Shown piece by piece: positions 28,324-31,351 of a stretch of DNA of 64,000 nt. The DNA comes from an uncultured Coriobacteriaceae bacterium. GTDB lineage: Bacteria > Actinomycetota > Coriobacteriia > Coriobacteriales > Atopobiaceae. The stretch spans positions 1 through 64,000 of the forward strand of contig CACZCK010000020.1 in assembly GCA_902779675.1 (NCBI GenBank), in the 5' to 3' direction. The translations under genes and the position numbers were made by a program. The notes under the pieces were generated by a model. That model searched no databases, was not told the DNA's origin, and worked only from the letters and a program-made list of their open reading frames with translations. Position 1 is the first letter of the stretch. The number at the start of each line of letters is the position of its first letter.

Positions 28324-28700
28324 GCGCGAAGTGGGCCAGGCGACCGCGGACCGGTGCGGTCCAGCATTGGACCGTGTCGGGATGAGGAAAGTCCGGGCTC
28401 CACAGGGCAGGAGGCAGGTTAACGGCCTGGCGGGGTGACCCGACGGAAAGCGCCGCAGAAAAGAAGACTCCCGCTGCCCGCCTCGGCGGGTGAGAGAAAA
28501 GCTGAAACGGTGGTGTAAGAGACCACCAGCGTCGTGGCAACACGGCGGCTTGGCAAGCCCCCTCCGGAGCAAGCGCATGTAGGAGCGCCATGGTGTGGCC
28601 CGCACCGCGCTCGGGTAGCGCGCTAGAGCCTGGCGGTGACGCCAGGAGTAGATAAATGGCCGCCCATCGACAGAACCCGGCTTATCGGCCCACTTCGCAC
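28324..28700 (+). ncRNA. rnpB: RNase P RNA, bacterial type A
   Basis: The 5' GCGAAGTGGGCC (28326-28337) pairs with the 3' GGCCCACTTCGC (28687-28698), closing helix P1. The universal core GAGGAAAGTCCGGGCTCC (28385-28402) is followed by ACAGGGCA. The 3' core has AGTAGATAAATGGCC, then GACAGAACCCGGCTTATCGG. Size, about 377 nt, fits type A RNA of high-GC Gram-positives. It is the catalytic subunit for tRNA 5' maturation. Short open frames across it are artefacts. Confidence 0.97.
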
Positions 28701-28879: not shown

Positions 28880-28949
28880 CGAATACGTGTTCGTGGAACG
28901 CTTGTACGAGTTTTCAACAAGTTTTATACTCTTGTCGAACATTCGTTCT
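28880..28949 (+). promoter_or_regulatory. Promoter flanked by two LexA-type SOS boxes
   Basis: -35 TTGTAC (28902-28907), a 17-base spacer and -10 TATACT (28925-28930) form a good promoter. CGAACATTCGTTCT (28936-28949) covers the expected start point and matches CGAAC-N4-GTTCB. CGAATACGTGTTCG (28880-28893) just upstream of the -35 differs from the full palindrome by one base. LexA at both would block polymerase, predicting DNA-damage induction of the two downstream genes. Confidence 0.75.
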
Positions 28950-28977
28950 CGCATCACAATCGTACGGGAGACGCGCC

Positions 28978-30342
28978 ATGGATACGCTCGCCAAGCTCGA
29001 CATACTTGCCGAGGCAGCCCGCTACGACGTGGCCTGCACCTCGTCGGGCGCCACGCGCGCCCCCAAGGCAGGCAAGCTGGGCGTCGCCTCCCCCGCCGGT
29101 TGCTGCCATTCCTTCACGCCCGACGGACGCTGCGTCACCCTGCTCAAGGTGCTCATGTCCAACGCCTGCACCTACGACTGCGCCTACTGCGTCAACCGCC
29201 GTCAGGCATCGTGCGCCCGTGCCACCTTTGCCCCGCGCGAGCTCGCCGAGCTCACCGTCGACTTCTACAAGCGCAACTACATCGAGGGGCTGTTCCTGTC
29301 GTCGGGGGTCCTCGGCACGCCCGACGCCACCATCGAGCGCATGGTGGAGTGCCTGCGCATCCTGCGCGACGAGCTGCGCTTTAACGGCTACGTACATGCC
29401 AAGGTCATTCCCGGCACCTCGCCCGAGCTTGTTGACGCACTGGGCCGCCAGGCCGACCGCCTCTCCGTCAACCTCGAGCTTCCCAGTGCCACCTCACTCG
29501 CGCGCCTCTGCCCCGAGAAGAGTAAGCCGCAGGTCATTGCCCCCATGCAACAGATTGCCCGGCTACGTACCGAGGAGGAGCGCACCCTGCTCGAGAGCAC
29601 CAGGCCCCGTCGTCGCCAGCTGCCGAGTCCGGAGCTCGAGGGGCGGCAGCTTCTGGGCAACGCGTCCCGGCTCACGCTGCGCCCGCACTCGCGCGTCTCC
29701 GCAAGACGCCGCACCTTTGCGCCGGCAGGACAGTCCACACAGCTCATCGTGGGGGCCACGCCTGAGGACGACAACCACATCCTCCAGCTATCGCAGGCTC
29801 TCTACCAGCGCTTCGACCTCAAGCGCGTGTTCTTCTCGGCCTACATGCCCATGGTGGAGGACGCCGCCCTCCCCTCCCGCGAGACACCCGTGCCCCTGCG
29901 CCGCGAGCACCGGCTGTACCAGGCCGACTGGCTCATGCGCTACTACGCCTTCTCGCCCGACGAGCTCGCCACGCCCAGCGAGCCCTGGCTCGACCTCGAC
30001 GTGGATCCCAAGCTTGCCTGGGCGCTGCGCCACATCGACCGCTTTCCCGTCGAGGTCATGGACGCGTCACTCGAGGAGCTTCTGCGTGTGCCCGGCGTGG
30101 GCCCTGTCGGCGCGCGGCGCATCCTCACCGCCAGGCGCCACGGCCCAATCGGCTTCGACGACCTCGCCAGGCTCAAGGTCACCCTCAAACGGGCGCGTCA
30201 CTTTCTGAGTTGCAACGGCCGGCGCGCCGACGGCTACCCGCTCGATGCCGAGCTCATCCGGGAGAAGGTGATAAGCGATGCCCGCCAAAGCGCCTACAAC
30301 CGCACCCGTCGCATGGCGGAGGGACAGCTCACCCTCTTCTGA
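28978..30342 (+). CDS. Putative DNA modification/repair radical SAM protein
   Basis: A 454-residue radical SAM protein. The iron-sulfur motif is CTYDCAYC (C64, C68, C71). Around it, SSGATRAPK, GCCHSFTPDGRCVTLLKVLMSN and the C-terminal helix-hairpin-helix VPGVGPVGARR (371-381) match the family annotated as putative DNA modification/repair radical SAM protein (TIGR03916 type), known for linkage to a uracil-DNA-glycosylase-like partner. The HhH suggests DNA binding. The ATG at 28978 has a GGGAG site; frame upstream runs through the promoter and is ignored. The partner gene overlaps its 3' end by 65 bases. The reaction is not known. Confidence 0.85.
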   Translation: MDTLAKLDILAEAARYDVACTSSGATRAPKAGKLGVASPAGCCHSFTPDGRCVTLLKVLMSNACTYDCAYCVNRRQASCARATFAPRELAELTVDFYKRNYIEGLFLSSGVLGTPDATIERMVECLRILRDELRFNGYVHAKVIPGTSPELVDALGRQADRLSVNLELPSATSLARLCPEKSKPQVIAPMQQIARLRTEEERTLLESTRPRRRQLPSPELEGRQLLGNASRLTLRPHSRVSARRRTFAPAGQSTQLIVGATPEDDNHILQLSQALYQRFDLKRVFFSAYMPMVEDAALPSRETPVPLRREHRLYQADWLMRYYAFSPDELATPSEPWLDLDVDPKLAWALRHIDRFPVEVMDASLEELLRVPGVGPVGARRILTARRHGPIGFDDLARLKVTLKRARHFLSCNGRRADGYPLDAELIREKVISDARQSAYNRTRRMAEGQLTLF

Positions 30343-31321
30343 CACCCAAGCCTCCGTACCAGCATGCCTTCAGGCCAGCGTCGAGCAGCTCTGCGCCTTC
30401 ATTCGAGAGGCACGGCCCGCCGTCGTGGCCTGCGAGCCCTCACTCGAGGGGGTGCTCGCGGGAGTGGGCATCACCTACCTCGCACACGCCCGAGCCGGAC
30501 AGATTCGCCTCGCCAGCTCACGCGACCTCCAGCCGGCGCTCGGCGAGGGCGTAGTCAGCCTGCCCGCACCCTCCGAAGAGGTGGTGGCCTTTGCACGCCG
30601 CGTGCTTCTGGGCTTCGCACGCCACGTGCGCCGCGACTGCAGGCGCCGACGCAAGGGGGTCTGCCCTCCAACCTGCACCGTCTCGTGCCTGCAGCGACTC
30701 ATGCTGGCCTCCGCGTCCGACGACCCCACAATGCCAGAGACCGTGCACCAGTACCTGCGTCTGGGATTTGCCGTAGGTCCACGCGTGCATGACATGATCG
30801 CCGATCCACGCGTCGCCGCCTACGACAGCCTAGCCCGCCACGTCTCGGGCGAGTGCGAGCACACCCGCCAGTTTGTGCGCTTCTCCCACATGGCCGACGG
30901 CTCGTTTGCCGCCTCATACACGCCAGGAGCCAACACCATCCCGCTCACGGCCGATCACTTTGCCCAACGCATGCTCACCGAGCGCTTCGTACTGGTAGAC
31001 CCCCGTCATCGGGTGGCAGCCTTCCACGAGGCCGGCGAGCGCGCCTGCCAGCTGGTGACCCTCGACGCGCCGCTCGCCCGCAACCTCGCGGAACGCCACG
31101 ACCTGGCCGACGACGAGCACTACGTGCGCGCCATGTGGCAGCGCTTCTATCAGGGCACCTCGCTCCCCGGGCGCGACCGCGCGCAGCGAGGCTACGACCT
31201 GCGCACCAAGTGGATGCCCCAGCGCCTGTGGGCGGGCCTCACCGAGCTTGGCCCCGAACGCGCATCCATGACCACGCCCGCACGCTACGCCGGCGAGCAT
31301 GACCTCCCCGCTACGCCATAG
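30278..31321 (+). CDS. DUF4130-type probable DNA metabolism protein, partner of the radical SAM gene
   Basis: A 347-residue protein whose middle part (HVSGECEHTRQFVRFSHMAD, then NTIPLTADHFAQRM and a WQRFYQG segment) matches the DUF4130/TIGR03915 family, almost always encoded beside the radical SAM protein. In some genomes the pair is fused to a uracil-DNA-glycosylase domain; none is present here. Residues 1-35 are Pro/Ala/Ser-rich and may be a start-site artefact, but the ATG at 30278 has AAGG at good spacing. A basic Cys stretch (RRRRKGVCPPTCTVSCLQ) lies near residue 122. It overlaps the previous gene by 65 bases, so translation is probably coupled. Confidence 0.78.
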   Translation: MPAKAPTTAPVAWRRDSSPSSDTQASVPACLQASVEQLCAFIREARPAVVACEPSLEGVLAGVGITYLAHARAGQIRLASSRDLQPALGEGVVSLPAPSEEVVAFARRVLLGFARHVRRDCRRRRKGVCPPTCTVSCLQRLMLASASDDPTMPETVHQYLRLGFAVGPRVHDMIADPRVAAYDSLARHVSGECEHTRQFVRFSHMADGSFAASYTPGANTIPLTADHFAQRMLTERFVLVDPRHRVAAFHEAGERACQLVTLDAPLARNLAERHDLADDEHYVRAMWQRFYQGTSLPGRDRAQRGYDLRTKWMPQRLWAGLTELGPERASMTTPARYAGEHDLPATP

Positions 31322-31351
31322 AAAAGGCGGCCCCTCGCATGAGGGGCCGCC
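31321..31351 (-). terminator. Terminator of the division operon, also between convergent genes
   Basis: GGCGGCCCCTC (31326-31336) pairs perfectly with GAGGGGCCGCC (31341-31351); on the minus strand it is followed by TTTTC. It ends transcription after divIVA and separates it from the DUF4130 gene. Confidence 0.88.

Follow-up and report, generated by a model that had tools for sequence, protein, structure and literature searches.

A likely SOS-induced radical SAM DNA repair enzyme with a DUF4130 partner and a predicted sliding clamp attachment in Coriobacteriia

Analysis of a 64 kb stretch of DNA from an uncultured member of the Coriobacteriaceae (referred to here as the window) identified a two-gene operon, preceded by two LexA-type boxes, that encodes a radical SAM protein with a helix-hairpin-helix (HhH) and a DUF4130 protein. 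We propose, at a probability of roughly 0.7, that this operon encodes a radical SAM enzyme for DNA repair, induced by the SOS response and tethered to the clamp, with DUF4130 as its obligate partner. The proposal draws on conserved LexA-type operators, the linkage of the two genes, and a C-terminal clamp-type motif and a set of extra invariant cysteines in the radical SAM protein.

Results

The host genome (2.90 Mb in 45 contigs) belongs to the Coriobacteriia and is that of a gut-type actinobacterium. The open reading frames of the radical SAM and DUF4130 genes overlap by 65 nt (Table 1). The 454-aa product matched TIGR03916 with 567.8 bits (curated cut-off 343.5), the 347-aa product matched TIGR03915 with 130.9 bits (curated cut-off 112.25), and the Pfam models PF04055, PF00633 (HhH) and PF13566 (DUF4130) were above their cut-offs in the pair; the overlapping radical SAM+HhH/DUF4130 pair of the original prediction is thus borne out. 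Relative to TIGR03916 and TIGR03915 (rSAM_link_UDG and SAM_7_link_chp, respectively), of which the adjacent window proteins are members, only SOS control, the clamp motif and the extra Cys/His residues go beyond the family definitions. Among named relatives, the radical SAM protein is closest to one from an uncultured Atopobiaceae bacterium (83% identity), followed by proteins from Olsenella, Thermophilibacter and Atopobium (67-74% identity). An RNase P class A RNA gene (28328-28700; 267.7 bits) lies directly upstream of the operon, and an apparent RNase P RNA 3' end is also found upstream of the operon in the congeners L268, L270, L271 and L277.

Table 1. Features of the radical SAM/DUF4130 operon and their positions in the window
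Feature	Position	Strand	Remarks
LexA-type box 1, CGAATACGTGTTCG	28880-28893	+	1 mismatch to CGAACN4GTTCG; same position in nearest congener (L274)
Possible weak third LexA box, GGAACGCTTGTACG	28895-28908	+	2 mismatches; overlaps -35 position
Putative promoter, TTGTAC - 17 nt - TATACT	28902-28930	+	-35 3/6, -10 5/6
LexA-type box 2, CGAACATTCGTTCT	28936-28949	+	1 mismatch; covers expected transcription start
Radical SAM/HhH gene, TIGR03916 (putative DNA modification/repair radical SAM protein)	28978-30342	+	454 aa
Residues 20-52 with invariant extra Cys20, Cys43, His44, Cys52	29035-29133	+	candidate auxiliary metal/cluster ligands
Radical SAM CX3CX2C motif, Cys64, Cys68, Cys71	29167-29190	+	all three Cys invariant
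Helix-hairpin-helix, residues 360-383	30055-30126	+	PF00633, E 1.6e-5
DUF4130 partner gene, TIGR03915 family putative DNA repair protein, without UDG domain	30278-31321	+	347 aa
QLTLF, beta-sliding-clamp-binding type motif, residues 450-454	30325-30339	+	C-terminal end of radical SAM protein
GC-rich inverted repeat, terminator-like on - strand	31326-31351	.	between pair and convergent downstream gene

Two LexA-type boxes had been predicted in front of the pair; both were found, each with a single mismatch, flanking the -10 element. No other site in the window comes within one mismatch of CGAACN4GTTCG, and sites with two mismatches occur there at chance level. As sites with one mismatch or less number 95 in the 2.90 Mb of the genome, the probability of finding two of them by chance in one 300-nt upstream stretch is approx. 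5 × 10-5. The possible third box has a counterpart in L274 (CGAACACTTGTCCT), which lies 15 nt past the first box, i.e., at the same spacing as in the window. The original prediction had also placed a "clear promoter" between the boxes. Its -10 element (TATACT; 28925-28930) does lie between boxes 1 and 2, matches the consensus at 5/6 positions and is also found between the boxes in several congeners, but the -35 element (TTGTAC; 28902-28907) matches at only 3/6 positions, so that "clear" is an overstatement. Because of this weak -35 element, a consensus promoter scan of the window did not report the TTGTAC/TATACT promoter.

The recA gene of this genome is preceded, at about 35-50 nt from its start, by a perfect CGAACN4GTTCG box (CGAACGGTTGTTCG), and lexA by two one-mismatch boxes (CAAACAATTGTTCG and CGTACAGTTGTTCG). 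A check suggested along with the original prediction was whether the lexA box of this organism differs from CGAAC-N4-GTTCG; as the recA and lexA boxes share the consensus found at the pair, no such difference was found. One-mismatch boxes, one each, were also present at ruvC, dinB and a DJ-1/Y-family-polymerase unit, all of which were recognised by reading translations. The latter is an unusual SOS unit in which a gene for a Y-family polymerase comes after a DJ-1/PfpI-like gene; its box is at position 1493 of L203 (G000:C6:38300-41300). A perfect palindromic box elsewhere in the genome (CGAACGCCGGTTCG at L008, G000:C28:33273-33286), near an apparent IS66-type transposase region, is probably not a LexA operator.

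The box was also sought in the 300 nt upstream of 91 Coriobacteriia orthologues. It was present with one mismatch or less in 68 and with two or less in 90 of these, as compared to 8/91 for the best other permuted half-site, and CGAAC ranked first among all 1024 half-sites in this set. Within the same-family subset, 14 of 39 orthologues had boxes with two mismatches only and one had no box. Among 12 congeners, the two boxes represent the sole conserved islands upstream of the pair. Boxes with one mismatch or less likewise preceded 38 of 80 named loci, most of them from Clostridia (permuted mean 1.5). One related family shows up to four LexA-type boxes in tandem (L015, L018, L020, L021, L025, L030, L031 and L037), located at about -75, -50, -34 and -18 and thus spaced by 25, 16 and 16 nt; this arrangement suggests cooperative LexA binding.

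Nine alphaproteobacterial plasmid loci, picked by protein search and not by promoter, all carried a perfect GAACN7GAAC, located 17-39 nt ahead of the start codon, while permuted half-sites reached no more than four of the nine loci at one mismatch. GAACN7GAAC is the alphaproteobacterial LexA operator. These data suggest that the LexA operator changed between phyla while SOS control of the pair was retained. In the region upstream of a Bacteroides plasmid copy (L101), neither of the published Bacteroidetes operators was found. Overall, the conservation of the box in the class and in Clostridia and the lineage-specific alternative in Alphaproteobacteria make SOS control of the pair, and hence control by DNA damage, very likely, with nearly as much certainty as sequence data can offer.

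A DUF4130 gene was found at 173 of 179 loci; among the remaining loci are short or truncated contigs. In each of the 74 named loci that were checked, it follows the radical SAM gene in the same orientation. Among 296 genomes, a radical SAM match over the cut-off was always accompanied by DUF4130, and a few genomes had DUF4130 only. Three genomes with DUF4130 had no radical SAM match (G238, G279 and G292), and in three others the radical SAM gene is in two pieces (G084, G245 and G282); the split or missing genes in these six genomes look like signs of decay or of draft assembly gaps. Two genomes of the same class (G022 and G061) have below-cut-off radical SAM homologues and no DUF4130 match. 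The radical SAM gene also occurs in gut records named "Bacteriophage sp.", in one of which (L107) DUF4130 adjoins it; these records, mostly short and unannotated, may be bacterial contigs.

Outside the radical SAM motif, Cys20, Cys43, His44 and Cys52 were invariant in both homologue alignments of the radical SAM protein. The full pattern of six Cys and the His was present in 177 of the 178 sequences, and the one exception deviates solely at the serine of the CxSxG part. A divergent homologue on a Gemmatirosa plasmid (L106) has no Cys20/Cys43/Cys52 set. In the AlphaFold2 model (pLDDT 87.5) the radical SAM core is present. The extra residues suggest an auxiliary iron-sulfur cluster, which is predicted rather than seen in the model, as residues 11-50 have low to moderate confidence. 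The best fold matches of the model were lipoyl synthase (LipA/LIAS; Z 17.8, with the N-terminal stretch included) and HydE (Z 16.9). However, the window protein has C20-X22-C43-X8-C52 in place of the CX4CX5C of lipoyl synthase, and its sequence kinship to the latter is limited to the radical SAM core. A sequence search of solved structures matched only ComEA-type HhH.

The C-terminal tail of the radical SAM protein is variable in length among homologues and predicted to be disordered (pLDDT <50). Q[LM][SDNTR]LF was found in the tails of 127 of 169 homologues, as compared to a mean of 0.13 after composition-preserving shuffling, and it was found nowhere else in the 169 proteins. Q[LM]xLF is the canonical type of bacterial beta-clamp-binding motif and is used by SOS polymerases too. 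Docking of the radical SAM protein on the clamp by this short linear motif is therefore likely. LexA control combined with a C-terminal clamp-type motif is also characteristic of the SOS-induced clamp clients UmuC, DinB and ImuB; unlike these polymerases, the window protein is a radical SAM enzyme, with clamp binding predicted.

The model of the DUF4130 protein (pLDDT 88.5) aligned, over residues 18-277, with DHH-DHHA1 phosphoesterases such as RecJ (Z 8.0-8.9), the best of these matches being modest (Z 8.9, rmsd 5.3, 206 aligned). Profile comparison with RecJ (hhalign) was not significant (E 0.25), with the best local stretch on DHH motif I, and the DHH motif is absent from both the window protein and the A3 consensus. 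We thus rejected DUF4130 as a true DHH enzyme; the likeness is one of predicted fold only. Its invariant residues (E192, R201, F228, R231, D241, R299 and E323) appear to form a different, enzyme-like set as compared to DHH proteins. A sequence search of solved structures found no match for DUF4130. The DUF4130 protein also contains a cysteine-rich stretch (RDCRRRRKGVCPPTCTVSCLQ; 30656-30710 in the window), which is shorter and poorer in cysteines in the Olsenella homologue L110.

In Pseudomonadota relatives the partner is annotated as UdgX family; in Agrobacterium, it consists of DUF4130 followed by a UDG domain with a KRRIH loop. The KRRIH R-loop marks the covalent uracil-DNA binder UdgX (PMC10359453). 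These UdgX-DUF4130 fusions have the same radical SAM neighbour and a lineage-specific LexA box, whereas the DUF4130 protein of the window has neither a UDG domain (PF03167) nor a KRRIH R-loop.

Discussion

SOS control of operons of this type is not new, since a two-gene COG1573-COG4277 operon, i.e., the UDG-linked form, has been reported to be LexA-controlled in Bacteroidetes (PMC8565304); the same paper cites precedents in Verrucomicrobia and Caulobacter (its refs 7 and 65). We infer that COG4277 corresponds to the TIGR03916 radical SAM/HhH family, and the Caulobacter and Bacteroides control genomes matched both TIGR families. The COG1573-COG4277 operon of Bacteroidetes, Verrucomicrobia and Alphaproteobacteria would thus resemble the operon in the window in having two genes, SOS control and the same radical SAM/HhH family; the window operon differs in that its partner is DUF4130 without a UDG domain, in its Coriobacteriia lineage and in its Gram-positive type box. 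DUF4130 itself has been described as a predicted enzyme related to mutagenesis, with links to UDGs and to radical SAM proteins of SplB-like type (PMC3765255). In the literature searched, we came across no report of SOS control of the stand-alone DUF4130 form found in Coriobacteriia and Clostridia, of the clamp motif or of the Cys/His set, and no paper that combines a clamp-binding motif with radical SAM. Neither the published SOS control of the UDG-linked form nor the clamp motif figured in the original prediction.

A repair role had been proposed for the pair on the grounds of damage control, with radical-based lesion reversal or modified-base removal as candidate chemistry. Such a role, which we consider likely, would follow from SOS control of the pair, the HhH and clamp motif of the radical SAM protein and the fusion to UdgX seen in relatives. 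LexA on the two boxes that flank the -10 element would block transcription, and DNA damage would release the operon through RecA-driven cleavage of LexA. The radical SAM protein would then bind DNA through its HhH and dock on the DnaN beta clamp through its QLTLF tail, which would place it at or behind the replication fork. Its radical chemistry might act, in newly replicated DNA, on an altered pyrimidine or on a repair intermediate of it; both substrate and reaction are a guess, suggested by the fusion of DUF4130 to UdgX in Pseudomonadota. UdgX is a uracil-DNA glycosylase and becomes covalently attached to the site it creates in DNA. DUF4130 would position the DNA or complete the reaction. 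A fuller version, i.e., a widespread SOS-induced, clamp-tethered enzyme with an auxiliary cluster that performs a reaction new to DNA repair on a pyrimidine lesion, with DUF4130 as a catalytically rewired partner of DHH/RecJ fold, is tentative and has less than even odds in our view.

The pair could also represent an SOS-linked accessory to base excision, whose main job would be to assist the removal of uracil or ribonucleotides once error-prone synthesis has taken place; the radical SAM protein would then modify or release a UDG- or UdgX-DNA adduct. We regard this as possible, at odds well short of even. UdgX-DUF4130 fusions adjoin the radical SAM gene in Alphaproteobacteria, and the COG1573-COG4277 operon was read by its authors as a UDG-based excision system (PMC8565304), but no UDG domain accompanies DUF4130 in the window or in the further examples read from Coriobacteriia, Clostridia, Bacteroides and Acinetobacter. 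Moreover, UDG-superfamily genes occur in 288 of the 296 class members whether the pair is present or not, and with UDG genes near universal in the class no dependence of the pair on UDG content is visible. Direct, SplB-like reversal of a UV- or radical-induced pyrimidine lesion seems rather unlikely to us. SplB performs radical SAM chemistry on DNA, as the window protein presumably does, and is SOS-regulated in several species (PMC8565304), and the reported linkage of DUF4130 with SplB-like radical SAM proteins (PMC3765255) would fit. However, searches of Pfam and NCBIfam up to E 0.1 gave no match to a SplB-type family model, and we therefore rejected SplB membership; the window protein belongs to another family, with an HhH, an obligate DUF4130 partner, best fold matches to lipoyl synthase and HydE, and an extra N-terminal Cys set that suggests other chemistry.

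The auxiliary-cluster-like Cys set and the structural match to lipoyl synthase, along with the "modification/repair" in the NCBI family name, could instead point to an SOS-induced modification of DNA or nucleotides, e.g., methylation or sulfur insertion by radical chemistry, which would mark or protect DNA. We judge this improbable, as SOS control and a clamp motif better suit repair or translesion factors, no such modification is known, and the cysteine spacing departs from that of lipoyl synthase. That the boxes are chance palindromes and not LexA sites has only a very slight probability. Most of the 95 sites in the genome presumably are due to chance, but those at the pair are clustered, are placed at a promoter, match the recA and lexA boxes and are conserved across phyla, and we rejected chance boxes on the grounds of this conservation and of the permuted half-site controls.

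Conclusions

That SOS control was retained although the LexA operator differs from phylum to phylum argues for a functional link between the radical SAM/DUF4130 pair and DNA damage. As the pair is also present in genetically tractable species, its proposed role is directly testable. Among radical SAM enzymes that act on DNA lesions, SplB is the best established. If our main reading is true, the pair would add a second and far more widespread one, which is controlled by DNA damage in several phyla and apparently linked to the replication clamp; this would constitute a new branch of DNA repair.
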